From: Pseudomarimonas salicorniae
GTDB taxonomy: Bacteria; Pseudomonadota; Gammaproteobacteria; Xanthomonadales; Xanthomonadaceae
Assembly: GCF_023156535.1 (NCBI RefSeq)
Contig: NZ_JALNMH010000010.1
Span: 62,001 to 126,000, forward strand
Direction of reading: 5' to 3'
Length of the DNA stretch: 64,000 nt
This document shows, one piece after another, positions 4,658 to 57,155 of the stretch (its first letter is position 1; every line of letters starts with the position of its first letter). A program made the translations under genes and the position numbers. The notes beneath the pieces are model-generated. The model was not told where the DNA came from. It searched no databases and was given only the letters and a program-made list of their open reading frames with translations.

Positions 4658-7600
4658 CTACTCGAAATCGTGGGCGAACAGCGTGTCCGGATCCACCAGT
4701 GTCTCGCGGACGAAGATATTGCTTTGCCCGCCCGCCGCGGAAGCGGACAGGTTGCTGGCCGAGGACTCGTAGGCCAGCCGCTTGCCCATGTAGTCCAGCG
4801 CCGGACGCGTGCCTGCGCCGTTCGCGATGTCGCCGGTCCCGCCACGGTCGAGGCGACGAAGGCTTCCCTCGCGCAGCGAGAACACATGGACGTCGGACAG
4901 GCCATTGTTGTCCGCCTCGGTCGCGACCAGATTGCGCGCCTGCGAACTGAAGCTCACTGTGCGCCCGTCGCCCGAGATGCGGGGCTCCAGAGCCGCGCCG
5001 TTGCCGTCGGCCTGGCCTCTGCCCTCACTGACACGAATCAGCGCTCCGCTGGACAGATCGAGGTGATAGATGTCGGGAAGGCCGTTCTTGTCCGAACCCG
5101 AAAGCGGCAGCGAGCTCTCGAACGCGATCCGCGTTCCCGAATAGTCGACCTGCGGGCGGCTGCTTCCGGCGCCGGCCGCGCCGCATTGCTGGGCGTTGCC
5201 GGGCGCCGCGATGGTCTGGCTGCTGCCGGTGAGCATGTTGCGCATGACCAGCGCGGTGCCTGGGTTCGCGCACGGGCTGGACTGGCCGCCGAGGTTACTG
5301 GCCTCGGTCTCGAACACCACGATATTGCCGTTCGCGGACACCACCGGATTGCGGCTCGGTCCGTTGGCCATCAGACCGCTGCCGGCATCGGCGCAGGACA
5401 GGCATTGCGGATTGTCGGGAGCGACCGGAATGAACTCGCCCCCGCTTTCCTGCAGGGGCACCCGGAACACATTGATCTGGCCCGGCACGCCCTGCATCGG
5501 GTTGGATACCGCGCCCGAAAACACGACCGCCTTGCCGCCCGGAGCCAGCACCGGCTTGGCCCCGGTTTCGGGAGCGGTGGCCACGCGGCGGGTGCTGCCG
5601 GTCAGCATGTTGCGCATGAAGACGCCACTGCTGCTGCCCTTGCGCCGGGCGTCCGCGGACTTCTTCGACTCGCCCCTCAGCTTGCGCACCGCGGCATCGG
5701 GGGCGACGAAGACCACCAGTTGGCCATCTGCCGATACGGACGGCTCGCCGGAAGCTCCGCTGATCTGCTGGCCCGCATCATCCACGCTGACACGCTGGAC
5801 AGCACCGGTGACCAGGTCGCGGCGGAAGATGTCCGGAGAGAGGTTGTTGTCGCCCGCCACCAGCGAATCCGAATCCGAGCGGAACACGACGTAGCGGCCC
5901 TGGGCATCGCTCACCGGCTCAGCGGAGTCGTCGTCGGCGCCGTCACTCGCGAGCGCGATCTCGCGGCTCGCCGAGTCCTCGATCACCGTGTCCGGCAGGA
6001 AGCGGCCGCCGGAGCTGCCATCGCCAAGGCGGCCGTAGTCGGAGAGTCCCCAGCAGCTGGCTGCGCCCGTGTCATCGATCGCGCAGCTGTGCGAGGTGCC
6101 GGCATCCACCCGCGCGTAGCGGATCGTCAGGTTGCCGACGCGAACGGGTGTGGACCGGTTGATCGTGCTGCCATCGCCAAGCTGGCCGTCGCCGTTGAAG
6201 CCCCAGCACCAGAGACTGCCGGACAGGGTTACGGCGCAGGTGTGCAGGTCTCCGGCACCCACCTGCGTGACCGGCGCATCGAAGCCCGACACCAGCTGCG
6301 GGGTGGCCGAGGCAAACGTGCCTGACACACCCAGCTGGCCACGGCTATTCGAACCCCAGCAGTACAGCGCGCCAGCCTGGTCGAACGCGCAGGCATGGTT
6401 GTTTCCCACCGCCAGCCCCTCTGCCGCGGGCAGGCCCTGCACCTCGACCGGGGTTCCGCTGGAGCCGCCCGGGACGCCGAGCTGCCCGGAGAAATTGACG
6501 CCCCAACACATCACCTTGCCGTCACCCTGGCGCGCGCAGCTGTGCTGGTCGCCGGCGCCGATCTGTTCCGCACTGCCTGAAATGCTCACTGCAACCGGAC
6601 GGTTGCTCGCCACCGTTCCGCCGTCGCCAAGCTGGCCGCCGGTGTTGTCGCCCCAGCAGCGGGCCGCGCCGGACTGCAGCGCGGCGCAGGTGTGGAAGCG
6701 TCCGGTGGCGATATCGACGGCCGGGCTATCGAGGTCGACGACCGCGGTCGGTCGCTCGATGTTGAAATCGGTCACTCCGGCGCCCAGCTGGCCCTGCACG
6801 TTGATGCCCCAGCAGTCCACGCCGCCCACAGAGTCGATGGCGCAGCTGAACTCCAGCCCCGTATCGACCTCCTGGTAGCTTCCCGGCGGGCCGACCTGTG
6901 TCGGTAGCAGGCGGGTCAGGAAGCTGTCGTCGCCGATCTGGCCGAACCAGTTGTTCCCCCAACAGGCGAGCTCGCCTGAAGTGCCCACGGCGCAGGTGGT
7001 TGAGAAGCCGGTGGCGATGCGGCTGAGGCCGAAGGGCTGGCTTGCCACCGGGGTGGCGACCACCCGGTCTTCCGAGTCACCGGTGCCCAGCTGGCCGAAG
7101 CCGTTGTTGCCCCAGCACTGGAGCCGCTTGTCGCTGCTGATGGCGCAGGTGTGGGCCAGGCCACCGGCCAGCCGCGTGATGGTCCCTTCCAGACCCTGCA
7201 CCGCCACCGGTGAAGTGCGGGTCTCGGTGGTCCCGTCACCCAGCTGGCCGAAGCTGTTGTCTCCGATGCAGGCCACCGCTCCGCCGGAAACCAGTGCACA
7301 GCGCTGCACGCCACCGATGGCGATGTCCAGCACGGTGCCGCCGAGGCCCCCGACCAGGGTGGGCGTGGCTTCGATGGTCTGGAAAGCGTCGCTGATCACC
7401 CGCATGCCCCAGCAGCGCATCTCGCCATTGTCCATGCGCGCGCAGCTCTGGGTGCCGCGGCGGTCGTTCTCGCTGGCCAGGATCTGGGCCACGCCGCTGG
7501 CAAGGCCGGACACCGCGACCGGTGCGTCGCGCTGGGTGAAGGTCCCGTCGCCGATGGCGCCATCCGAATTGCCACCCCAGCACTGCGCGCCGCCGTTGAT

Positions 7601-8215
7601 GATGGCACAGCTGTGACGACCACCTGCCGTGATGTCGCTGACGCCGCTGACCAGTCCGCTGACCTGGGTCGGTACGGAGCGGAACGTAGTGCTGCCATCG
7701 CCTAGCTGACCGACGAAATTGTTTCCCCAGCACAGCGCAGCACCGGACACGGTGGCGGCGCAGGTATGCGTCGTGCCGGCGGAGAGTCGCTGCAGCGGCC
7801 CGGGCAGGCCGGACACCGCCGTGGGCGAGGACTTGATCTGCGTCGTGCCGTCGCCCAACTGCCCTGAGGAATTCGACCCCCAGCACATGGCCGATCCGTC
7901 GACCAGGCGCGCACAGGTGTGTGAGCCGCCGGCGCTGAGCTCGGCGACGGCAGCGCTGAAGCCGGTGACCTCTACCGGTGACTTCTGCTCGGTGAAGTGC
8001 CCCAGACCCAGCTGGCCGAACTGGTTGCGGCCCCAACAGAAGACGCGCCCATCCTCGAGCAGGGCGCAGGTATGGCCGTCACCTGAACTGGCCGCGATGA
8101 CGCCGTCGAGGACAGGGGCAGCGTGGGCGGCAGAGGCGAGGAGGAAGAGCAGCAGGCCCGGGCCTACCACGGCCTTGAGCCAGCGGGTCCTGGTCAGGGT
8201 GGGCATCTTCGACAC
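4658..8215 (-). CDS. Large exported protein with RCC1 repeats, a PD40/TolB-like propeller and a C-terminal FE tail
   Basis: 1185 residues from the GTG at 8215; an in-frame ATG at 8206 would remove three residues, and neither has a clear Shine-Dalgarno. A signal peptide (residues about 10-33, ending AAHA) is followed by about 14 RCC1-type units, each with a C-W-G-x-N-x-x-G-Q-L-G core, enough for two seven-bladed propellers (roughly residues 35-760). The remainder, from about 785, carries repeated DGR.VVF.S...L...D blades like the PD40/WD40-like blades of TolB. It ends [15 protein letters not shown]1 repeats were first known from eukaryotic chromatin regulators but are widespread in bacterial secreted proteins, where they usually serve binding. 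A surface adhesion or binding role is inference. The gene faces away from the palindrome-rich tract at 8361-8648. Confidence 0.75.
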
Positions 8216-8360: not shown

Positions 8361-8648
8361 TCGGCCGCTTCGCGGCTACGGCGAGCTTTACTCGCTCGGC
8401 CGCTTCGCGTCTGCGGCGAGCTTCCCTCGCACGCCGGATCGCTGCTACGCAGCTCGAAATCCCGGCTCGTTCCGGCCAGAGCGCCTGCATGCGCTCTGGC
8501 GTTCGACCGCTTCGCATCTACGGCGAGCTTTCCTCGCACACCGGCTCGCTGCTACGCAGCTCGAAACCCCGGCTCGTTCCGGCCAGAGCGCCTGCATGCG
8601 CTCTGGCGTTCGCCGGCTCGCTGCTACGCAGCTCGAAATCCCGGCTCA
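8361..8648. repeat. Tandem array of two interleaved palindrome-containing repeats
   Basis: The 430-base gap 8216-8645 holds no convincing gene but is strongly repetitive. Unit beta (about 68 bases, starting CGCTGCTACGCAGCTCGAAA) occurs at 8438-8505 and 8545-8612, with a partial third copy at 8617-8646. It contains the perfect stem CCAGAGCGC/GCGCTCTGG around CTGCAT and the small stem GCTGC-TAC-GCAGC. Unit alpha (core CGGCGAGCTT, flanked by CGCTTCGC and CTCGC) occurs at about 8362-8396, 8397-8437 and 8506-8544. Copies are nearly identical, suggesting recent duplication. Unit lengths and order (alpha-alpha-beta-alpha-beta-beta') do not fit a CRISPR array. It lies between two genes transcribed leftward, and its last bases overlap the stop codon of the gene to its right. 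Confidence 0.8.
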
Positions 8649-24779: not shown

Positions 24780-24943
24780 GCGGCCGCGCCGCGCGGCGTG
24801 CCGCGCCGGCAGGCATCGCTGCAATAGACCACCTGATCCCAGTCCTTCGCCCACTTGCGACGCCAGCTGAACATGCGCTGGCAGACCGGGCAGCGCTTCT
24901 CTGGCAGCCCCGGGGCCCGCGATTCGCGCCGGGAACCCGGCAT
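24752..24943 (-). CDS. DUF2256 zinc-ribbon-like small protein
   Basis: 63 residues. It has the DUF2256 pattern: KRCPVCQRMFSWRRKW, then WDQVVYCSDACRR, i.e. CxxC...CxxxC ligands for one zinc ion with a Trp-rich centre. Function is unknown. Its ATG (24943-24941) shares a base with the stop of the diguanylate cyclase gene, so it is translated as the second gene of that transcript. Its own tail overlaps the end of the convergent phosphopantetheinyl transferase gene by 28 bases. The start is well fixed by the overlap and by the family's short N-terminus. Confidence 0.8.
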   Translation of the reverse strand: MPGSRRESRAPGLPEKRCPVCQRMFSWRRKWAKDWDQVVYCSDACRRGTPRGAAAQPGITRKK

Positions 24944-27798
24944 CAGCGGGAGGTCGCGACCACGCGATTGCGACCCTGGCGCTTGGCGGCGTAGAGCGCG
25001 GTGTCGGCGTCGCGCAGCAGATCCGTCGGGGTGCGCCCGGCGGCCGGCACCTCGCTGGCCACGCCCACGCTGACCGTGGTCGGGAATCCGGGATGGTCGA
25101 AGCTCGCGCGCATCGCCTCGGCGCGCTGTATGGCCTCCTCGAGGTGGGTGCCGGGCAGGACCACGGCAAACTCCTCGCCGCCGAAGCGGGCCAGCAGCTC
25201 GCGCACCGGGCGCACCATTTCATCGAGCTTCTCCGCGACCCGTACCAGCTGCTGGTCACCCTCCAGGTGGCCATGCTGGTCGTTGAACTGCTTGAAGTGG
25301 TCGACGTCGATCATCACCAGGGACAGCGGCTGGCGCAGCTCGGCGCAGCGCTCCCACTCGCGGGCCATGGCCTGCTCCAGCGCGCGGCGATTCGCGACTC
25401 CGGTCAGGCTGTCCTCGGTGGCCAGCTCGGCGAGCTTGGCGTTGGCCTGCTTCAGCTCGAGGGTGCGCTCGGCGATCTTCGCCTCCAGCCGGCGGTTCGC
25501 CGCCCGGAACTGCCGGTAGCGCAGACGCGCCAGCAGCTGAGCGCCAAGCAGCAGCAGGAGCAGGACGGCGCAGCCCAGGCCGATTCGCGCCCAGGGCGTC
25601 TGCCACCAGGCCGGACGCACCGCAAAGGCAAAGGCCAGCGGCTCGCCCAGGCGACCATTCCGCGTGCGCCCCTCAACGCGCAGCAGGTACTCGCCCGGGC
25701 CGGGTGCGCGCAGGGTGAGGGCCGGTCGTCGGGCGGGGCTCCATTCGCTCCAGCTGCCGTCCAGCCCGTCGATGCGCTGGCGGAACTCCACCCCGGGTTC
25801 CATCGTCGGCATCCGGAAGTCGAACAGCAGTGCATCCCCGTCGGCCAGCGCCAGGTCGGGTGCGCCACGAAGCGGCAGGCGGTGGCTTCTGCCGTCGGCG
25901 CGACGCAGCTCCCAGCCGGCGAGCTGCACCGACAGGGGCATCAGCGGCGACTCGTCCACCTCTGGATCGAACTGCAGCAATCCGCCCCAGGTCTTGATCC
26001 GCAGCTTGCCGTCGGCGTCGGTCTTCATGCCGAAGAAGCCGCGCGCAAGCCCCGAGCCCAGCGGCGCGAGCTGCCAGTCCCCGGTGCCCGGAAGGCGCCG
26101 GAAGAGCTGCCGCTCCGCATAGGCGAAATCGCCATGCTCGGTCTCGGTCAGCCCCATGCTGAAGGGGCGCTCGAAGAGCGAGAACGGCGGGCCCTCGTAG
26201 GGCTCGAATCGTTCGCCGACGAACCGGTAGACGCGCTGCCCGCAGACCGCGTAGAGCCCCCCGTCGAGGCGGTAGAGGATGCTGCCCATCGCCGGATCCC
26301 AGTGCAGGCCCTGCTCCGGCCCGAACAACTCGCGAGCCTCGATGCGCAGGCCACTCTCGTCCAGCGTCCAGCGCTGCGGGGCCCCGCGCAGGTCGTCGAC
26401 CCACAGGCGGCCGGCGTCGGCCTCGAAGATCTCGGTCAGGCTGATGCCCTCGAGCGGCCAGCGGGCCAGTGTCTTCCAGTGGACGCCCTGCTGCGCCAGC
26501 ACGGCGATCTCGTCATTGCCCAGGGCGTAGACGCGCCCCGGAAACCGCTCCGACGCCTGCAGCAGGAAGGTTGAGTCCTGCTCCAGCACGCGAAGCGTCG
26601 ACCCGTCCCGGTCGGAGTGCCAGAGCACCCCGTCACGGTCGCCCACCAGCAGGCCGCCTGCGGCGGCGAGCAGGGTGCCTGCTTCGAGGCTGGTGTCGAT
26701 GGCCGGCCGGAAGGCGATCTGCCCGTTGCGACGCGCGCTGCGGAAGACGCCGACCGAGGTGCCGACCCAGAGCGAGCCGTTGTGGAATGCGGTGTCGAGC
26801 ACCGACCCCGAGAGACCTTCGCGCGGGCTGAACGTGCTCCACGGGGAGGGCAGGCGAAGGCGGACGAGATCGCCCTCGGTCGACACCCAGACGCCGCCTT
26901 CCCGGTCATGGTCGAGCCGGAGGATGGAATAGGGGCCGAGGGCGTGGATGCCGACCACGCCGAACCCGGCGTCGAGATGGATCACCTCGCCGCCGTCGGT
27001 TCCGATCAGATAGCCGCCGTCGGCCAGCCGCAGTCCTGGCGCCGGGTCGCGGGCCGCCAGCACCGGGTCGGCCGGCCCGCTGAGCCGCGAGAGGCCCTTG
27101 GAATGGGACAGGTAGATGCCCTCCCGGCTGACCAGCACCAGGTCATCGGGGCGGGCGAAGATCTCGGACAGCGGTCGCTCGGCAAATGCTTCGCCGCCCG
27201 GCGCCAGCCGGAATCCGCCGGCGTCGATGCGGCCGAAGCCGTGCCCGTGGAGGCGCGTGTAGAGGGTGTCACCGATAGCAAACACCCGCCGGTAGTCCAG
27301 ACCCAGCGGCCAGCGCTCGCGCTCGCCCGCGTAGCCGAGGAAAAACAGCGCTTCGTTGCTGCGGAAGAACAGTCCGCGCGGCGTCGCAAGCACGTCCCAG
27401 ATGATGCCGAAGGTGGCCTGCTCGCCGTCGACGCCGAACTCGCCGCGCAGGTCGACGTAGCGAAAGGCGCCCGTGGCGTCGATGTCCAGCCGGCCGAACT
27501 GGTCGACGCCGCCGACGTGGATCCGTCCGTCGCGGTCCAGGGCAAGCGCACGGGCCGGCGAGAAGCCGGGGAGTTCGATCAGGTCCCAGTGGCTGCCGTC
27601 GTAATGCAGGACGCCGGCGCCGTTGGCCACCAGCAGACTGCCATCGGGCAGCGAGAGCACGTCATGGCTGGAGGGGTTGGCGTCGTGGTCCTCGGCCCCG
27701 AAGCGCTGCTGCAGCGGCTGCCCCTGCAGCGACAGGTCCGGAGCTGCCGCGGCGGCCAGGAAACTGCACAGCAGCAGCGGGAGCGCGGCTTTCACCAT
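24943..27798 (-). CDS. Diguanylate cyclase with periplasmic two-component-propeller sensor
   Basis: 951 residues. The ATG at 27798 is preferred because it begins directly with a signal peptide (MVKAALPLLLCSFLAAAAA); the frame is open to 27888. Residues about 30-640 form repeated propeller blades of the Reg_prop type, residues about 640-730 a Y_Y_Y-like beta domain, a membrane helix follows at about 737-758 and a short coiled coil leads to the GGDEF domain (about 795-950) with an active-site GGEEF near residue 875. It should make cyclic di-GMP in the cytoplasm in response to a periplasmic ligand. The position of the inhibitory RxxD I-site reads RPVR, so product inhibition may be lost. It is divergent from the ECF sigma gene and co-transcribed with the DUF2256 gene. 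Confidence 0.9.
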   Translation of the reverse strand: MVKAALPLLLCSFLAAAAAPDLSLQGQPLQQRFGAEDHDANPSSHDVLSLPDGSLLVANGAGVLHYDGSHWDLIELPGFSPARALALDRDGRIHVGGVDQFGRLDIDATGAFRYVDLRGEFGVDGEQATFGIIWDVLATPRGLFFRSNEALFFLGYAGERERWPLGLDYRRVFAIGDTLYTRLHGHGFGRIDAGGFRLAPGGEAFAERPLSEIFARPDDLVLVSREGIYLSHSKGLSRLSGPADPVLAARDPAPGLRLADGGYLIGTDGGEVIHLDAGFGVVGIHALGPYSILRLDHDREGGVWVSTEGDLVRLRLPSPWSTFSPREGLSGSVLDTAFHNGSLWVGTSVGVFRSARRNGQIAFRPAIDTSLEAGTLLAAAGGLLVGDRDGVLWHSDRDGSTLRVLEQDSTFLLQASERFPGRVYALGNDEIAVLAQQGVHWKTLARWPLEGISLTEIFEADAGRLWVDDLRGAPQRWTLDESGLRIEARELFGPEQGLHWDPAMGSILYRLDGGLYAVCGQRVYRFVGERFEPYEGPPFSLFERPFSMGLTETEHGDFAYAERQLFRRLPGTGDWQLAPLGSGLARGFFGMKTDADGKLRIKTWGGLLQFDPEVDESPLMPLSVQLAGWELRRADGRSHRLPLRGAPDLALADGDALLFDFRMPTMEPGVEFRQRIDGLDGSWSEWSPARRPALTLRAPGPGEYLLRVEGRTRNGRLGEPLAFAFAVRPAWWQTPWARIGLGCAVLLLLLLGAQLLARLRYRQFRAANRRLEAKIAERTLELKQANAKLAELATEDSLTGVANRRALEQAMAREWERCAELRQPLSLVMIDVDHFKQFNDQHGHLEGDQQLVRVAEKLDEMVRPVRELLARFGGEEFAVVLPGTHLEEAIQRAEAMRASFDHPGFPTTVSVGVASEVPAAGRTPTDLLRDADTALYAAKRQGRNRVVATSR

Positions 27799-27905
27799 GT
27801 GCACAGTGTCGCGCAAGCGGGGTCCCGCGCCTATCGTCCGATCGGTTTTTCGAGACGCAGGGCGCAGACTGCGACGGATCGCCTCCACCAGCCGTCCTGA
27901 TCAGC

Positions 27906-28460
27906 ATGGATGTCGCCCAACGGGAAACTGCCAGTGGATTTGCCCTTGCCCTCGACGCCAGCGTGCTCGCCCGCGCCCAGCGCGGCGACGCCTCGGCCTT
28001 CGAAGTCGTCTACCGCAGCTATTCGCGGCCGGCTTTCGGCCTGGCGCTGCGCGTGCTCGGCCGGCCCGCGGTGGCCGAGGACGTCGTCCACGATGCCTTC
28101 CTTCGAGCGTTCGAGCGGATGGACGGCTATCGCGGTGATGCCCCGTTCGGCGCCTGGATCAAGCGCCTGGTGCTCAATGCCGCCATCGACCGGCTGCGCG
28201 CCGAGCGGCGCTGGGCTGGCGACGCCGAGCCGGTGGACGCGCTGCGCGAGGTGCGCGAGGACCCGTCCCCGCTGCTCGACGCCCAGGGCCTCCTGGCCAG
28301 GCTTGCCCCGCGCGCCAGGGCGGTGGTCTGGCTGCACGAGATGGAGGGCTGGTCGCACCCGGAGATCGCCGAGCGCTTCCGGCAGAGCGAGAGCTGGTCG
28401 AAGTCGGTGCTGGCGCGCAGCCTCGAGCGGCTGCGTGCGCAGCAGGAGGACGCAGGATGA
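27906..28460 (+). CDS. ECF RNA polymerase sigma factor, cassette 1
   Basis: 184 residues. Region 2 (about 20-90) contains DVVHDAFLRAFERMDGYRGD and GAWIKRLVLNAAIDRLRAE; region 4 (about 125-180) contains HEMEGWSHPEIAERFRQSES with the recognition helix after it. It has the layout of a two-domain ECF sigma with no extra domain. The next gene overlaps by 4 bases (ATGA) and encodes a single-pass membrane protein that is the likely anti-sigma factor. A close paralogue is encoded at 48480-49082: both share YRGDAPFGAW and the EIA...WSK pattern. Target promoters are unknown. Confidence 0.9.
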   Translation: MDVAQRETASGFALALDASVLARAQRGDASAFEVVYRSYSRPAFGLALRVLGRPAVAEDVVHDAFLRAFERMDGYRGDAPFGAWIKRLVLNAAIDRLRAERRWAGDAEPVDALREVREDPSPLLDAQGLLARLAPRARAVVWLHEMEGWSHPEIAERFRQSESWSKSVLARSLERLRAQQEDAG

Positions 28461-28918
28461 ACTGGACTGAACAAGAGGACCGCGACGAAGCGCAGGGCTG
28501 GCTGGTCGAGCGGCTGTCTGCCCTGCCGGACGCGGATCCGCCGGCGGCCCTGTTCGGGCGCATTCTCGCCACGCGGCGCCGACGGCGCTGGCAACGGCGG
28601 GTGGCGGCATCGCTTGCGGTGGCCGCCGGGCTGGTTGTGCTGATCGGTCCGCTGTACGTCGACCTCGGCCGGCCGGCGCCGGAGTCAGAGCCGATCCCGG
28701 TCTCCGCGACCGAGGAGCCGCTGCCCGACGGCCCGGCAGCGGCTGGCCGGGACTGGCAGCTCGCCGTGCTCGACCGTCGCCTGCAGGCCGCCTACGACCG
28801 CGGCGCGGATCCCGAACACATCACTGCGCTGTGGAAGGCGCGGGAACAGCTGGTCCGCCCTCAGGCAGGCCGCGACACCGACGAGGAGTCCGATGATGAA
28901 CGCATCCTTTCGCTCTGA
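28457..28918 (+). CDS. Probable membrane anti-sigma factor, cassette 1
   Basis: 153 residues. A cytoplasmic N-terminus (about 1-50, ending in a very basic RRRRRWQRR) is followed by one membrane helix (about 51-68) and a periplasmic tail. There is no HxxxCxxC zinc anti-sigma motif. The N-terminal LPDADPPAALFGRILA corresponds to LPGAMPPADLGERILA in the protein at 49079-49468, and the periplasmic motif LDRRLQAAYDRGA...LWKAREQLV corresponds to VDRRLQAAYLAGA...LWNAREQAV there. Coupling to the sigma gene and this architecture make anti-sigma function likely, though not proven by homology to a known family. It overlaps the next gene by 26 bases. Confidence 0.7.
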   Translation: MNWTEQEDRDEAQGWLVERLSALPDADPPAALFGRILATRRRRRWQRRVAASLAVAAGLVVLIGPLYVDLGRPAPESEPIPVSATEEPLPDGPAAAGRDWQLAVLDRRLQAAYDRGADPEHITALWKAREQLVRPQAGRDTDEESDDERILSL

Positions 28919-29783
28919 ACGCAGCTTGCCCGCCCGGCCGCCGCGTCGGCCCCTGGCGCTGCTGCTGGCGCTGTTCGCGCCGGCGGCCTTCGCCCAGGCG
29001 CCGGTCAGCGCGCCCGAACTGGTCGACGAGGCGGTCATCGCCATCCACCACGCGCGGGGCGCGGAAGACCGGCCGCTGACCATCGAACAGCCGGCGCGGG
29101 TGCGCTACGAGCTGGGCGCGGTGATCGACAGCCAGCCCGAGGACGGTGGGCTGCCCCGGGTGATGGCGGTCACGCCGCGCCGCGCCGCGGACCGCATGGG
29201 ACTGATGGAAGGTGACCGGCTGCTGTCATTGGGCGATACGCGATTCGACAGCGTGGCGGATCCGGGGGCGTTGCTGCGCGAGGCGGTCGCCGGTGGGCAC
29301 GGCATGCTGCGCTTCGAAGTGCTCCGCGATGGCAGGACCCGGCAGGTCTCCGGCCACCTGGATCGCATCGACATTCCCGGCTATCGGCTGCAGATCGACG
29401 CCCCGGCCGCCGTCGAAGGCTGCGGGCGGGTCAGCACCTTCCTTACACCGCCGATCAGCGAGGATCTTTTCCCGGCCCTGCTCCATGAGATCGACGGTCG
29501 CCTGTATGGCTCCCTGGACAGCGAAGTGTTCCGCCTGCCCGCCGGCCGCCACGTGCTCAAGGTGACCGAGATGATCCGCGGCGATCGATTCCTTGGCCAG
29601 CAGAACCGCCAGCGCCAGCGGCTGATGCGCAACGAGCGCTTCAAGTACCTCGAGATCGACGTCAAACCGAACACCAAGTACCACCTCGGCGTGCGTTTCT
29701 TTCCAGATCGGCGCAATCCCATCCGCGACCAGAAGTACTGGGAGCCGGTGATCTGGAAGGAAACCGAGGAACCCTGCCGATAG
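28893..29783 (+). CDS. Exported PDZ-domain protein with a C-terminal repeat domain, cassette 1
   Basis: 296 residues. The N-terminus has a basic stretch and a hydrophobic signal peptide (about 20-36, ending AFAQA). Residues about 65-160 form a PDZ-like domain (VRYELGAV...MAVTPRRAADRMGLMEGDRLLSLGD), with no protease domain. Residues about 173-296 are a second domain that starts CGRVSTF and ends RRNP...KYWEPVIWKE, followed by EPC; the same domain makes up the whole mature protein encoded next (29867-30301). The two terminal Cys could pair. Overlapping translation with the anti-sigma gene suggests it acts on, or reports to, the membrane anti-sigma factor in the periplasm; that is inference. The paralogue at 49465 lacks the second domain. 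Confidence 0.75.
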   Translation: MMNASFRSERSLPARPPRRPLALLLALFAPAAFAQAPVSAPELVDEAVIAIHHARGAEDRPLTIEQPARVRYELGAVIDSQPEDGGLPRVMAVTPRRAADRMGLMEGDRLLSLGDTRFDSVADPGALLREAVAGGHGMLRFEVLRDGRTRQVSGHLDRIDIPGYRLQIDAPAAVEGCGRVSTFLTPPISEDLFPALLHEIDGRLYGSLDSEVFRLPAGRHVLKVTEMIRGDRFLGQQNRQRQRLMRNERFKYLEIDVKPNTKYHLGVRFFPDRRNPIRDQKYWEPVIWKETEEPCR

Positions 29784-29866
29784 ACGGCCGCGCCCGGGGC
29801 GCGACCCCATTCCTTCGGCGAGTGACCGTCCACCGGTCCTCGTCGGAACCCAGCTGGAGACCCACC

Positions 29867-30301
29867 ATGACCAGATCATCCTGCATCCTCGCCCTCTTCG
29901 TCGCCTCGTTCGCCGCCGCCGCGCCGGCCCTGGCCGACAGCTGCGCCCGGATCAGCACCTTCGACTCGGCCCCGCGCGCCCAGCAGCTCTTCCCCGCGGT
30001 GCTGATCGCGGTGGACGGGGACCTGCCCGGACCCACCGGCGCGCCGAGCTGGCGGATCACGCCGGGCCGTCACGTGCTGAAGGTGGCCGAGGCGATCGAG
30101 CCGAACCGGTTCACCACCACGCAGAACCGCGAGCGCGACGGCCGCCGCGCCGATCGCTACAAGACACTCGAGATCGATGCGAAGCCGGGCATCACCTACC
30201 GGCTTGCCGTCCGCTTCTACCCGGATCGGCGGAACCCGATGCGCGAGGGGCGCTACTGGGAGCCGGTGATCTGGAAGGAGTCGCCGGAACCGTGTGGCTA
30301 G
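29867..30301 (+). CDS. Exported single-domain protein, duplicate of the preceding C-terminal domain
   Basis: 144 residues, start ATG 29867 with GGAGA at 29856-29860. A signal peptide (1-23, ending APALA) precedes a domain homologous to residues about 173-296 of the protein before it: both have C.R.STF, LFPA.L, GRHVLKV.E.I, QNR.R, LEID.KP and RFxPDRRNPxRxxxYWEPVIWKE..EPC. The first and last Cys are conserved. The two proteins probably arose by domain duplication. It is 83 bases downstream of the PDZ gene and likely part of the same regulon. I do not recognise the domain family; its shared periplasmic location suggests ligand or lipid binding, but nothing in the sequence proves it. Confidence 0.7.
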   Translation: MTRSSCILALFVASFAAAAPALADSCARISTFDSAPRAQQLFPAVLIAVDGDLPGPTGAPSWRITPGRHVLKVAEAIEPNRFTTTQNRERDGRRADRYKTLEIDAKPGITYRLAVRFYPDRRNPMREGRYWEPVIWKESPEPCG

Positions 30302-30351
30302 CGGGACGGCCCGGCCGCCACGCATGCCGGGGCGCGGCGATGGTCCGTTGC

Positions 30352-30724
30352 GGGCGCAGAGCAGACATTCATAGGGTGCGGCTGGCCGCACCGGGCGTAC
30401 CGTCCGAACGCCCGTATCGGTGCGCCAAGGCGCAGCCTATGGGGCTTCGCCGATGCCCAACGAGACCCGAATGTGGGAGTGCCCTTGGGCGCGACCGCGG
30501 AGATCCGCTCCGGCCGCGGTCTGTGGTGAATCCGTAGCGCTGCGGTCGCGCCCAAGGGCACTCCCACAATTTGACCGCGGCAAGGCCTGCTTTGCGGCGC
30601 AAACCGGACCTGGCAGCGCCGTTGCACGTAGGAGCCAGCTTGCTGGCGATCGTCCCGTCCGGGGGCCCATCGCCAGCAAGCTGGCTCCTACATCCGGGTT
30701 CTGCGCAAGGTCTGCTTCGCGCCC
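30352..30724. repeat. Composite palindromic element, long copy 1
   Basis: Occupies most of the 517-base gene-free interval 30302-30818. Ends are inverted: GGGCGCAGAGCAGAC at 30352 and GTCTGCTTCGCGCCC ending at 30724. Inside are three palindromic modules. C (30370-30441) begins CATAGGGTGCGGCTGGCCGC and ends CCTATG. B has perfect 26-bp arms at 30473-30498 and 30542-30567, headed GTGGGAGTGCCC. A has perfect 23-bp arms at 30627-30649 and 30669-30691, headed GTAGGAGCCAGC, each arm itself containing GCCAGC-TT-GCTGGC. A further end-like sequence (GCCTGCTTTGCGGCGC, about 30585-30600) lies between B and A, suggesting two units fused. No open frame within is likely real. Confidence 0.85.
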
Positions 30725-47245: not shown

Positions 47246-47254
47246 ACGCCGATC

Positions 47255-47519
47255 TGGCGCGAAGAAGACGTGCATAGGGTGCGGCTGGCCGCACCGGGCT
47301 TACCGTCCGAATGCCCTTATCGATGCGCCCAAGGCGCACCCTATGGGGCATCGCCGACGCCCAACGAAGCCCGACCGTAGGAGCGCACGTGGGCGCGACC
47401 GCGGCGTGACGTGTTCTCCACAGACCGCGGCCAGAGCGAACCTCCGCGGTCGCGGCCATGTCCGCTCCTGCGAAGAGCCCGCCCGATCGGGGTCGGCGGC
47501 GAATGTCCGATTTGCGCCC
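47255..47519. repeat. Composite palindromic element, short copy 1
   Basis: 265 bases starting 9 bases after the HAD gene stop. Ends are inverted: TGGCGCGAAGAAGAC at 47255 and GTCCGATTTGCGCCC ending at 47519. Module C (47273 onward, CATAGGGTGCGGCTGGCCGC to CCTATG at about 47344) is followed by a variant B module with arms headed GTAGGAGCGCACGTGGGCGC and ending GCTCCTGC, around a core CACAGACCGCGGCCAGAG. Module A is missing. The layout matches the copy at 52719-52981 almost base for base, including the linker CGCCCAACGA between C and B. The rest of the gap (47520-47689) holds only the promoter-like site listed next. Confidence 0.85.
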
Positions 47520-47614: not shown

Positions 47615-47641
47615 TGTAACCTTTTTCCCCTGGGGGCCGTC
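47615..47641 (+). promoter_or_regulatory. Possible ECF-type promoter upstream of the Sel1-like lipoprotein gene
   Basis: TGTAACC at 47615-47621 and CGTC at 47638-47641 are separated by 16 bases, the AAC...CGTC pattern typical of many ECF sigma promoters. Transcription would start near 47648, about 40 bases before the lipoprotein ATG at 47690. An ECF sigma gene lies downstream (48480). I did not find the same pair in front of either sigma gene, so regulation by those factors is only a possibility. Confidence 0.35.
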
Positions 47642-47689: not shown

Positions 47690-48403
47690 ATGAAGCGTTT
47701 GCTGCCGTGTCTGTTCATCCTGCTGTCCGCCGCCGCTTGTTCCGAGCCGCCTGGAGCGCTGACCGGGCTGCAGCGCGAGCTGTTCAACTCGGATGGGTTT
47801 CTTGCCCGGCATCCCGATGTCGGCGAACGCAAGCGGGCGATCTGGCTTCTTGATCAGGGGCGCCACGAGGAGGCGCTGGCCGCGTTCCGCTCGGCCGCCC
47901 ACTACGGCGACAAGCCCTCGCAGGCGATGCTTGCCGAGATGTACTGGCAGGGCAGCCGCGTGACCCAGGACAGGGCAACGGCCTACGCCTGGATGGATCT
48001 CGCCGCCGAGCGCGGTTACGCGCTGTTCGTCGCCAAGCGCGAGCGCTACTGGCGCGCACTCAACCCTGCAGAGCGCCAGCGCGCGCTCGAAGTGGGAGCG
48101 AGGATCTACGAGGGGTTCGGGGACGAGGTCGCCATGCGGCGCCTGCAGACCGTGCTCGACCGCGGTCGTTTCGGCGTCACCGGCAGCCGGGTCGGCTTCG
48201 TCGGTGCGCTGACCGTGCTCGACCCGAGGCACGGGCTGCGTTTCACGTTCGATGGCGAGGACTATTACGACCGCCGCTTCTGGGAGATCGACCGCTACCG
48301 CGAGTTCACCGATGCCATCTGGTCGGGTTGGCCCCGGGGCGAGGTCGAGGTTGGGGGGGCGACCGTGGAGCGCTGCGTGTCGGGCGGCGACTGTGGGCAG
48401 TAG
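47690..48403 (+). CDS. Probable lipoprotein with Sel1-like repeats
   Basis: 237 residues, ATG 47690 with GGGGAG 7 bases upstream. The N-terminus MKRLLPCLFILLSAAAC is a lipoprotein signal with a lipobox ending at Cys17, so the mature protein is likely lipid-anchored. The central part (about 45-105) has helical Sel1/TPR-like units: GRHEEALAAFRSAAHYGDKPSQAM and the typical DRATAYAWMDLAAERGY. The C-terminal third is beta-like with no motif I know and ends in two Cys. Sel1-like lipoproteins often scaffold envelope complexes. The gene ends 76 bases before the second sigma cassette and may belong to its regulon. Confidence 0.72.
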   Translation: MKRLLPCLFILLSAAACSEPPGALTGLQRELFNSDGFLARHPDVGERKRAIWLLDQGRHEEALAAFRSAAHYGDKPSQAMLAEMYWQGSRVTQDRATAYAWMDLAAERGYALFVAKRERYWRALNPAERQRALEVGARIYEGFGDEVAMRRLQTVLDRGRFGVTGSRVGFVGALTVLDPRHGLRFTFDGEDYYDRRFWEIDRYREFTDAIWSGWPRGEVEVGGATVERCVSGGDCGQ

Positions 48404-48479: not shown

Positions 48480-49082
48480 GTGAGCGCTTCGACCTCCACC
48501 CCCGCTTCCTGGCCTACGCGCGCCCTGCACGCGATGTGGCGCTTCGGTCGCGCCCATGCGCAGGATTCCGAGGCGCAGCTCATTGCCGCGGCTCGACGCG
48601 GGAATCGCGAGGCCCTCAGCGCGCTGTACCGGCGCCATGCCGGCGCGGCCTTTTCGCTGGCGCTGCGACTGTGTGGTGATCCCGATCAGGGCCAGGACCT
48701 GGTCCAGGACGCCTTCCTGCGCGCGTTCGACCGGCTCGACCGTTACCGCGGCGATGCCCCGTTCGGGGCATGGCTGCGCCGCATCCTCACCAACCTCGCG
48801 GCCGACCGTGCACGGAGCGATTGGCGTTGGGTACACGACGGTGAGGTCATCGATGCGCTGTCCGCCGGCGAGGGTGCAGGGCCGGGCGGGCAGATCGATG
48901 CTCTGGGTCTGCTTTCGCGACTGGCGCCGGCGGCGCGCATGGTCATGGTGATGTACGAGTATGAGGGCTACTCGCACGCCGAGATCGCCGGGTTGCTGGG
49001 ACGCACCGAGGTCTGGTCGAAGACCACCCTCTCGCGCGCCCGGGCGCGGCTCGCCGGCTGGCTGGAGGGTGAGGGGGCATGA
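48480..49082 (+). CDS. ECF RNA polymerase sigma factor, cassette 2
   Basis: 200 residues from a GTG at 48480 (an ATG 7 bases upstream is out of frame). Region 2: ALSALYRRHAGAAFSLALRL, DLVQDAFLRAFDRLDRYRGD, GAWLRRILTNLAADRARS. Region 4: MYEYEGYSHAEIAGLLGRTE with the recognition helix WSKTTLSRARARL. It is a paralogue of the protein at 27906-28460 (shared RYRGDAPFGAW, EIA...VWSK). The next gene overlaps by 4 bases. The N-terminal about 30 residues precede region 2 and may be shorter in reality, since start choice is uncertain. Confidence 0.9.
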   Translation: MSASTSTPASWPTRALHAMWRFGRAHAQDSEAQLIAAARRGNREALSALYRRHAGAAFSLALRLCGDPDQGQDLVQDAFLRAFDRLDRYRGDAPFGAWLRRILTNLAADRARSDWRWVHDGEVIDALSAGEGAGPGGQIDALGLLSRLAPAARMVMVMYEYEGYSHAEIAGLLGRTEVWSKTTLSRARARLAGWLEGEGA

Positions 49083-49468
49083 GCAGCGATTCCCGCGACC
49101 GGCGCGTGGACGATTACCTGCGCGGCCTGCCTGGGGCCATGCCGCCGGCGGACCTGGGTGAGCGGATTCTCGCCCGGCACGCCTCACGAAGGCGGCTGCG
49201 GCGGCTGCTCCCGCTGGCGGCCGCTGCCACCCTGCTGGCCGGATTCCTTGCCTGGCGCGCGCAGACGCCGGCCGCTCCGCCGGTGCTCGTGGTCGATCCT
49301 CCGGCGGCCCTGCTCGACCTGCGCAGCGTCGACCGTCGGTTGCAGGCCGCCTATCTGGCCGGCGCGGGTGAAACCGAGCTGGACCGCCTGTGGAATGCGC
49401 GCGAGCAGGCCGTGGCCGAACTCCGCGGCGGGGGTCACGGCTCCGGTCGGCGGCAGGTTCGTCTGTGA
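49079..49468 (+). CDS. Probable membrane anti-sigma factor, cassette 2
   Basis: 129 residues. A short cytoplasmic N-terminus (LPGAMPPADLGERILARHAS), a basic RRRLRR patch, one membrane helix (about 44-60) and a periplasmic tail with VDRRLQAAYLAGA...LWNAREQAV. The same three elements occur in the same order in the protein at 28457-28918. No zinc anti-sigma motif is present. It overlaps the sigma gene by 4 bases and the PDZ gene by 4 bases (GTGA), so all three are translated together. The function is inferred from coupling and topology. Confidence 0.7.
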   Translation: MSSDSRDRRVDDYLRGLPGAMPPADLGERILARHASRRRLRRLLPLAAAATLLAGFLAWRAQTPAAPPVLVVDPPAALLDLRSVDRRLQAAYLAGAGETELDRLWNAREQAVAELRGGGHGSGRRQVRL

Positions 49469-49983
49469 GCCGGCTGAGCTGGCTGTGCCTGGCTGCCCTC
49501 GTCGCTGTCGGTCCCTCGATGGCGGCCGAAAGCGAGGTCGAACGGCAGGTGGCGGACGAGGTCGAAGCGGCCCTGTTGCGCCTTGCCGAATCCGGCGCGC
49601 TGGCCGAGACAGGGCGCAGCCTGAGCATCGAGCGTGAGCCCAGGGTGCGCTACGAGCTCGGGGCCGTGGTGGAGATCGATACCGCCTCGGGTGAGGCGCC
49701 GATCGTCGCCATCACCCCGGGTGGCAGCGCAGAGCGGATGGGACTACGGGTCGGCGACCGCATCCTGGCGATCAATGACCTCGACCTGACCCGCAGCGAG
49801 GACCCAGGCGCGGATTTCGCCCGCTCCACGGCCCGTGCCCAGGGCCGGCTTCGGCTCGTCGTGCGGCGCGGTGAGCGTCGCCTGGAGTTGGCCGGCAGTG
49901 CCGAACGGGTACTGGTACCCGGATTCAGGCTGCGCATCGAGCAGCCGGACCTCAACTCGACCGGCGTTGAGCCCTTGCGTTGA
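49465..49983 (+). CDS. Exported PDZ-domain protein, cassette 2
   Basis: 172 residues from a GTG at 49465 that overlaps the previous stop. A signal peptide (1-19, ending PSMAA) is followed by a helical linker and a PDZ-like domain (about 60-150): VRYELGAV, IVAITPGGSAERMGLRVGDRILAIND. It aligns with residues about 60-160 of the cassette-1 protein (28893-29783) but stops where that protein's second domain begins, so it is the shorter form. There is no protease domain. It probably senses or relays an envelope signal to the neighbouring anti-sigma factor; this is inference. Confidence 0.72.
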   Translation: MSRLSWLCLAALVAVGPSMAAESEVERQVADEVEAALLRLAESGALAETGRSLSIEREPRVRYELGAVVEIDTASGEAPIVAITPGGSAERMGLRVGDRILAINDLDLTRSEDPGADFARSTARAQGRLRLVVRRGERRLELAGSAERVLVPGFRLRIEQPDLNSTGVEPLR

Positions 49984-52705: not shown

Positions 52706-52718
52706 GGACGGCCGCGTC

Positions 52719-52981
52719 GGGCGGAGAGAAGACATTCATAGGGTGCGGCTGGCCGCACCGGACGTACCGTCCGAACGCCCGAATGGGTGCGCCCAAGGCA
52801 CACCCTATGAGGCTTCGCTGAGGCCCAACGAGGCCCGACTGTAGGAGCGCACATGGGCGGACCGCGGCGTGACGTGTTCTCCACAGACCGCGGCCAGAGT
52901 GAGCCTCCGCGGTCGCGGCCATGTTCGCTCCTACGAAAAGCTCGCCCATCCGAAGCCGCGGCGAACGTCTGCTTCGCGCCC
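52719..52981. repeat. Composite palindromic element, short copy 2
   Basis: 263 bases filling most of the gap between speD and coq7 (52706-52996). Inverted ends: GGGCGGAGAGAAGAC at 52719 and GTCTGCTTCGCGCCC ending at 52981. Module C (CATAGGGTGCGGCTGGCCGC to CCTATG) and a variant B module (arms headed GTAGGAGCGCACATGGGC, ending GCTCCTAC, core CACAGACCGCGGCCAGAG) are arranged exactly as in the copy at 47255-47519; module A is absent. Short open frames inside are consequences of the palindromes. Confidence 0.85.
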
Positions 52982-56781: not shown

Positions 56782-57155
56782 GGGCGCAAAGCAGACCTTC
56801 CACAACACCCGAATGTAGGAGCCAGCTTGCTGGCGATCGTCCCTTCCGGGGCGCCTATCGCTAGCAAGCTGGCTCCTACGTGCAACGGCGTTGCCAGGCC
56901 CGGTTTGCGCCGCAAAGCAGACCTTGCCGCAGTCAAATTGTGGGAGTGCCCTTGGGCGCGCCCGCAGCGCTGCGCATTCAACGAGGACCGCGGCCAGAGC
57001 GGATTTCCGCGGTCGCGCCCAAGGGCACTCCCACAGTCGGGCTTCGTTGGGCGACAGCGAGCCCCATAGGGTGTGCATTGGGCGCACCGATACGGGCGTT
57101 CCGACGGTACGCCCGGTGCGGCCAGCCGCACCCTATGGATGTCCGCTTCGCGCCC
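56782..57155. repeat. Composite palindromic element, long copy 2 (inverted)
   Basis: 374 bases between cdd and the CoA-transferase gene, within a gene-free stretch (56682-57191). It is the reverse orientation of the copy at 30352-30724: modules run A (arms 56815-56837 and 56857-56879, one mismatch), B (GTGGGAGTGCCCTTGGGCGC arms, about 56940-57035) and C (CATAGGGTG...CCTATG, about 57064-57137). Ends: GGGCGCAAAGCAGACC at 56782 and GTCCGCTTCGCGCCC ending 57155. An internal GCGCCGCAAAGCAGACC (about 56910-56926) between A and B again looks like an internal end. No real gene inside. Confidence 0.85.

Follow-up and report, generated by a model that had tools for sequence, protein, structure and literature searches.

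Two cassettes, A and B, in a 64-kb stretch of the Pseudomarimonas salicorniae genome (hereafter the window) each encode an extracytoplasmic function (ECF) sigma factor, a membrane protein that we take to be its anti-sigma factor, and an exported protein with a PDZ domain. We read the cassette as an autoregulated envelope-signalling system: the PDZ protein would bind the C-terminal tail of the anti-sigma factor and set its stability. We give this reading a probability of roughly 0.6. At the sequence level it is supported by the genes themselves, their order, their conservation, the anti-sigma tail, a promoter motif of the operon, and occurrence of that motif before part of a set of Sel1-like genes. 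An ECF system for which we found no literature description thereby gains a concrete, testable mechanism consisting of one peptide and one domain.

A conserved three-gene ECF module

Cassette A lies on the plus strand and opens with ECF sigma factor A (184 aa, 27906..28460; Pfam Sigma70_r2 1.6e-15, Sigma70_r4_2 6.6e-10). Its gene overlaps by 4 nt (28457-28460) that of putative anti-sigma factor A (153 aa, single-pass, 28457..28918), which overlaps by 26 nt (28893-28918) the gene for exported PDZ protein A (296 aa with signal peptide, 28893..29783). Cassette B, also on the plus strand, repeats the arrangement with sigma factor B (200 aa, 48480..49082, GTG start uncertain; Pfam sigma regions 2 and 4), a 4-nt overlap (49079-49082) into putative anti-sigma factor B (129 aa, 49079..49468), and exported PDZ protein B (49465..49983; Pfam PDZ_6 1.5e-09). 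The open reading frame listed for PDZ protein B runs from 49390; we took its start at GTG 49465, because the signal peptide then comes first, and this codon overlaps the anti-sigma stop (GTGA). Signal peptides and lipoboxes were judged by eye throughout. Both sigma factors have sigma-70 regions 2 and 4 and are shorter than about 210 aa, as expected of the ECF type.

The first-pass annotation of this DNA had proposed that the cassette occurs twice, with paralogy at all three positions, and all six reading frames were found where it had put them or close by, in the stated order and with overlapping neighbours. The A and B sigma factors are 48% identical over 169 aa (E 5e-51) and the PDZ proteins 42% over 112 aa (E 4e-24), while the membrane proteins share 56% identity over 32 aa in the periplasmic segment (E 3e-07); the shared motifs that it cited are present in the sequences. 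Its description of the pair as duplicated within the window did not survive. In a FastTree phylogeny of 58 sigma sequences A and B fall into separate clades (supports 0.913 and 0.848), sigma A pairing with a same-genus cassette (L015, support 0.973) and sigma B with a cassette of another genus (L005, 0.95); this placement rules out a local duplication. We take the tree to mean that cassette A is the copy proper to the genus and that cassette B is probably either an older paralogue or was acquired by transfer. A whole-genome search with PDZ protein A (E 0.01 or better) returned only PDZ protein A itself, a stand-alone copy of its C-terminal domain, and PDZ protein B.

The cassette is a real, conserved three-part ECF module. 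The first-pass annotation had made co-occurrence of the three genes outside this genome a test of its proposal, and we found the order sigma, anti-sigma, PDZ in 57 distinct loci (window A and B and locus L028 included), 56 of which show the sigma gene or its end. They come mostly from Lysobacterales (Xanthomonadales), with further examples in Aliikangiella and Ningiella. With PDZ protein B as query, 69 of 149 related genomes gave matches at 1e-3, the weaker ones including other PDZ proteins; around the best matches (30 fetched loci, one per genome, the window's B among them, and L028 of a sibling type described below) the anti-sigma gene lies upstream in 30/30 and the sigma gene in 29/30, the thirtieth being cut at a contig end. 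A 16-row profile searched against the host order matched 146 of 397 genomes at 1e-8, in many cases over just the PDZ part; among the matches listed, those of 51 genomes extend from profile position 80 or earlier to 230 or later, and the best 30 loci have both sigma and anti-sigma genes in every case. A class-wide draw of 369 genomes gave 22 with matches; every long match came from the host order, and outside it only the PDZ part or the C-terminal-domain part matched.

A scan of named genomes yielded 14 loci, 12 of them with anti-sigma and PDZ genes and 11 of these with the sigma gene as well (L035 is cut at a contig end). Named cassettes include those of Aquimonas, Rehaibacterium, Lysobacter tolerans, Dokdonella and Pseudomarimonas, and, outside the order, Aliikangiella (Oceanospirillales), Ningiella (Alteromonadales) and an unplaced gammaproteobacterial metagenome-assembled genome. 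One of the named loci, L044 of Pseudomarimonas arenosa (order Lysobacterales), is identical in sequence with same-genus locus L013. The locus sets overlap: another search also gave 7 of the 12 cassettes from named genomes and 9 of the 30 loci from the order (window's own included). The remaining two of the 14 named loci hold stand-alone C-terminal-domain lipoproteins of Shewanella and Ferrimonas, and no sigma cassette was matched in the fetched loci around them. These two lipoproteins (L046, 3917-4369; L047, 3929-4339) match no Pfam family above cut-off.

Eight sibling cassettes (L028, L052, L053, L054, L056, L059, L065, L074) also encode a sigma factor, an anti-sigma factor and a PDZ protein, the last mostly without the C-terminal domain. 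L028 and L074 come from the host's family and the other six from other families of the class, and the siblings occupy a separate part of the sigma tree. Three of them (L052, L053, L059) have a promoter-like TGCGACC-N16-[CT]ATC with the same spacing as the cassette motif given below, and the L056 anti-sigma carries the zinc motif Hx3Cx2C. We found no description of the cassette in the literature; that literature did not cover the large ECF reclassification, so the sigma factors may already have a group number. No published ECF group for the two window sigmas turned up in the literature looked at.

The anti-sigma tail and the PDZ protein

The AlphaFold model of anti-sigma A (mean predicted local distance difference test, pLDDT, 78) has a helix at residues 3-22, a long helix that includes the transmembrane segment, a helical hairpin on the periplasmic side and a tail of low confidence; the last ten residues are modelled at pLDDT under 50, so the tail is probably flexible. 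The hairpin is conserved, with D, Y, LW and R invariant in 14 alignment rows. Gene order and this topology suggest that the membrane protein binds the sigma factor. Structure search gave no credible solved relative of the membrane protein, the best rows being WD-repeat proteins with no stretch passing alone.

Behind the hairpin, after a linker of variable length, the anti-sigma proteins end in a conserved motif. In anti-sigma A this predicted PDZ ligand is ILSL, encoded at 28904..28915 on the plus strand, and anti-sigma B ends in QVRL-COOH. We compared 54 tail sequences left after removal of duplicates and of rows more than 85% alike, 52 of them full-length by profile span and two shorter. Of the 54, 49 end in I, L, M or V; T, V, L or I stands at -2 in 46 and R at -1 in 33; the background frequency of I/L/V/M/F in the same proteins is 24%. 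The five exceptions end in Ser (L021, L023, L026), Asp (L028) or Tyr (L057), L028 and L057 being included in the set though the sigma tree groups both with siblings. A control set of RseA proteins of the same order, the best 30 of 97 listed matches without thinning by similarity, had such a C-terminal end in 0 of 28 (the other two, L191 and L195 at contig edges, were unread). A free hydrophobic end with a hydrophobic residue or S/T at -2, as expected of a PDZ ligand, is thus present at the sequence level, is missing in L021, L023 and L026, and is mixed in the siblings. According to excerpts of PMC8545111, the PDZ domains of DegS and AlgW have room for bulky side chains at 0 and -2.

PDZ protein A has a PDZ domain at about residues 68-162 and a beta-rich C-terminal domain at about 177-295 (AlphaFold pLDDT 81). 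Its Pfam PDZ match is below cut-off; a 13-row profile matches the PDZ domain of DegP (7e-12), and structure matches over residues 68-162 are to the PDZ domains of HtrA2, HtrA3, DegP, DegS and AlgW at Z 11-13, with peptide-bound DegS, AlgW and HtrA3 structures among them. The domain is thus of HtrA type. In the presumed carboxylate loop, L74-G75 is invariant in the 13 rows. Since a PDZ protein here adjoins a protein whose conserved end has the form of a PDZ ligand, binding of the two is suggested, and the periplasmic tail of the anti-sigma looks suited to capture by the PDZ protein. In this way the conserved tail lends indirect support to the action of the PDZ protein on the anti-sigma factor that the first-pass annotation had proposed. 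A pairing between tail position -2 and PDZ residues was also tried: residues 76 and 80 of PDZ protein A vary with the -2 class (T/S versus hydrophobic) in 49 pairs, columns 80 and 76 ranking first and fourth, and as the pattern follows phylogeny it was not used as evidence.

The C-terminal domain of PDZ protein A, in which C177 and C295 are invariant in the 13 alignment rows, may be a ligand-binding part; PDZ protein B lacks the domain, and cassette B would do without that function. All listed matches from the structure search lie on the PDZ domain. In L021, L023, L026 and L029 the PDZ protein seems to be without the parts around the PDZ domain, and L021 and L029 have extra genes for the C-terminal domain.

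A similar combination of ECF sigma factor, single-pass anti-sigma, periplasmic regulator and PDZ domain that reads C-termini is described for RpoE-RseA-RseB-DegS-RseP of E. coli and AlgU-MucA-MucB-AlgW of Pseudomonas (excerpts of PMC8103513 and PMC8545111). In those systems the PDZ domain sits on a protease and reads the tails of outer-membrane proteins or MucE, whereas in the cassette no protease domain was matched and the tail is on the anti-sigma itself; they also have an RseB-type protein, which shields its anti-sigma (PMC8103513, in excerpt), whereas Pfam finds no MucB_RseB domain in the third gene of the cassettes. One might still see the cassette as an ordinary RpoE-RseA-DegS system that has shed its protease domain, given the HtrA-type PDZ, ECF sigma and membrane anti-sigma, but this is very unlikely. 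Separate genes with RseA_N (C4:12453) and MucB_RseB (C4:11485) domains and an RseP gene are kept elsewhere in the genome, neither membrane protein matches the RseA models (RseA_N is absent from both in Pfam), and PDZ protein A has its own C-terminal domain. As the first-pass annotation had noted, the PDZ proteins lack a protease domain; nothing trypsin-like was matched, and protease-family matches in Pfam and NCBIfam are confined to the PDZ part. We therefore rejected membership in the RseA/RseB/DegS family, in agreement with its separation of the cassette from the DegS/RseP system. The cassette is a pathway additional to RpoE-RseA-RseB, since the RseA, RseB and RseP genes lie elsewhere.

The chief rival to binding by the PDZ protein is a tail read by a protease: it would be a degron for a PDZ-bearing protease (the tail-specific Prc/CtpA, or RseP), with the co-encoded PDZ protein as competitor or decoy. 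The genome has an RseP gene, and Prc and CtpA influence how FoxR, an anti-sigma of P. aeruginosa that a partner protects, is proteolysed (excerpt of PMC11637429). We consider this unlikely, however, because the neighbour of the tailed anti-sigma in the examined loci is the PDZ gene, and canonical RseA of the same order ends without such a tail. FoxR/FoxA cell-surface signalling, of the FecIRA type, also offers a likeness to the role proposed here for the PDZ protein, in that an extracytoplasmic partner guards the anti-sigma from proteolysis (same excerpt); unlike it, the cassettes have no transducer gene and their membrane proteins no FecR match.

The first-pass annotation had stressed that the membrane proteins lack a zinc anti-sigma motif. 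The absence is correct for both, and Hx3Cx2C occurs in 0 of 31 anti-sigmas of the first set of relatives (window pair included), presumably through loss in the cassette's anti-sigmas, but it is not distinctive. Three relatives (L042, L043, L045; 3 of the 14 in set A6) carry the motif, and excerpts of PMC7406223 put the share of class I anti-sigma domains without it at about 44%, with presence mixed inside groups, so its absence is unremarkable. We ruled out zinc-motif loss as a defining novelty. The cassette proteins may resemble class I anti-sigmas (ASDI), with or without the motif, in combining a small helical cytoplasmic part with one transmembrane helix; the window proteins differ from them in a very short N-terminal part and in having neither the zinc motif nor an above-cut-off family match.

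The predicted operon promoter and Sel1-like candidate targets

Upstream of sigma A lies a predicted ECF promoter, TGCGACG-N16-CGTC (27870..27896, plus strand), whose last nucleotide is 9 nt before the sigma ATG; it is the sole exact match in the window. For the survey of relatives, 84 three-part loci were reduced to 77 with 200 bases upstream, 60 distinct ones, and finally 52 once three siblings and five truncated loci had been removed. The motif [CT]GC[GA]ACG-N16-CGT[CA] occurs within 180 bp in 45 of these 52 cassettes and on the opposite strand in none; as it was read from the same loci in which it was counted, the fixed spacing and the strand control bear the weight. It misses L003 (cassette B), L032 and L033, and looser variants occur in L010, L042, L043 and L045. 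In 23 of the 45 cassette promoters the first in-frame start is 8-12 nt past the -10 element; many sigma transcripts may therefore have no leader. On the best reading of these sequences the cassette operon carries its own promoter and would be an autoregulated ECF system.

The motif is a handle for finding the sigma regulon, and Sel1-like genes are candidate members. A Sel1-like lipoprotein gene (47690..48403, plus strand; Sel1 E 1.7e-06, just under the Pfam cut-off) lies directly upstream of cassette B and is likely the first gene of the B operon; 48 nt before it is a candidate promoter, TGTAACC-N16-CGTC (47615..47641, plus strand), a single site and a variant of the cassette motif. Of the nine exact sites in the genome, one stands before a gene whose secreted product is 33% identical to this lipoprotein. 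Eighty Sel1-like genes were then chosen by hand among the matches listed, 40 from genomes that we judged to have a cassette and 40 from genomes with no cassette match. The relaxed motif precedes 16/40 in the cassette group and 3/40 in the other (one-sided Fisher 0.0006; opposite strand 1/40 and 0/40), and the strict motif 13 and 1 (one-sided Fisher 0.0003); because of the choice by hand, some tandem copies and the relatedness of all the genes, these p-values are only guides. Cassette status of G031, G067 and G110 was judged by the PDZ match alone, and the non-cassette group includes G088, which has C-terminal-domain matches. In a previous survey of 30 Sel1 loci the motif stood at 8 of 39 genes.

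Proposed mechanism and neighbouring features

In the mechanism that we propose, the N-terminal helices of the membrane protein would hold the sigma factor in the cytoplasm, while its periplasmic side would expose the helical hairpin and a flexible tail with a hydrophobic last residue and T/V/L/I at -2. The exported PDZ protein would bind this free C-terminus and decide between stability and hand-over to proteolysis. In unstressed cells it would most likely shield the anti-sigma, by analogy with RseB and FoxA. A competing ligand, either the exposed C-terminus of another protein or a ligand of the C-terminal domain, would free the tail, and the freed anti-sigma would be cleaved, with the genome's RseP as candidate site-2 protease. 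The released sigma factor would then transcribe its own operon and a small gene set, some of it encoding secreted Sel1-like proteins. Sigma/anti-sigma binding, tail/PDZ binding, the direction of control, the signal and the proteolysis are the steps that we infer. If correct, the cassette would be a natural case of envelope signalling with PDZ recognition apart from proteolysis. A broader version, in which the cassette is an undescribed but widespread envelope-stress switch whose protease-free PDZ receptor reads the anti-sigma C-terminus, with any exposed hydrophobic periplasmic C-terminus as a potential competitor that would activate the sigma factor, and the operon and secreted Sel1-like proteins as outputs, is tentative and somewhat doubtful.

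Several points weigh against the proposed system. (i) The label of anti-sigma factor rests on position and topology, as no relevant Pfam family was matched: Pfam gives nothing for membrane protein A and a single chance-level match for B; NCBIfam offers PRK13920 ('putative anti-sigmaE') for B at 2e-04, far under cut-off, and other weak, sub-cut-off anti-sigma matches. (ii) The tail sequences are related and the counts not independent, so that the binomial value of 5e-25 is not a true probability, and anti-sigmas failing the profile (e.g. L051) were left out of the count. (iii) Sibling tails are mixed (SQRR, RAAF, TASF, ANSI, VYQP). (iv) The promoter motif was derived where it was counted, and the region upstream of sigma B is without it. 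(v) The motif is not enriched genome-wide, with 9 exact sites in this genome versus 26 for the reversed pattern and fewer sites than the reversed pattern in 20/20 other genomes; an attempt to define the regulon by the motif alone failed on this account, and of it we retain just the Sel1-like link, which was compared with other genomes. (vi) In the cassette group 24/40 Sel1-like genes are without the motif; as most of the examined genes lack a site and there is no genome-wide enrichment, the regulon is probably small and partly known.

A further point against it is that a subclade in which the tail is lost (L021, L023 and L026 ending in Ser, L029 in NDI) retains the PDZ gene. This retention favours a different view: the PDZ protein would be one more product under sigma control, linked to the other two only by the shared operon and acting on other C-termini as envelope chaperone or scaffold, and the tail would serve membrane insertion or dimerisation; target genes can sit in sigma operons. 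Yet a short C-terminal motif that stays conserved past a linker of varying length is difficult to account for unless something reads free carboxyl ends, and the gene order is stable in the examined loci, so we judge this view improbable and prefer binding of the tail by the PDZ protein.

The first-pass annotation had given the element as 27906-30301. Cassette A ends at 29783, and the remainder holds a fourth gene (29822..30301, plus strand) for a free-standing paralogue of PDZ protein A's C-terminal domain (53% identity over 121 aa), with a signal peptide from about 29867. On the other side of cassette A a divergent gene (24943-27888, minus strand) encodes a GGDEF protein with a weak regulator-propeller match and has its upstream region in common with the cassette. 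Dispersed repeats (D2, D3, D5, D6, D8; 64-93% alike) lie near both cassettes, at 30351-30664, 47253-47484, 52717-52947 and 56783-57047. Elsewhere in the window are six copies of a 92-nt repeat (6011-7779, spacings 153, 450, 306, 153 and 615 nt) and a 107-nt tandem pair at 8393-8606.

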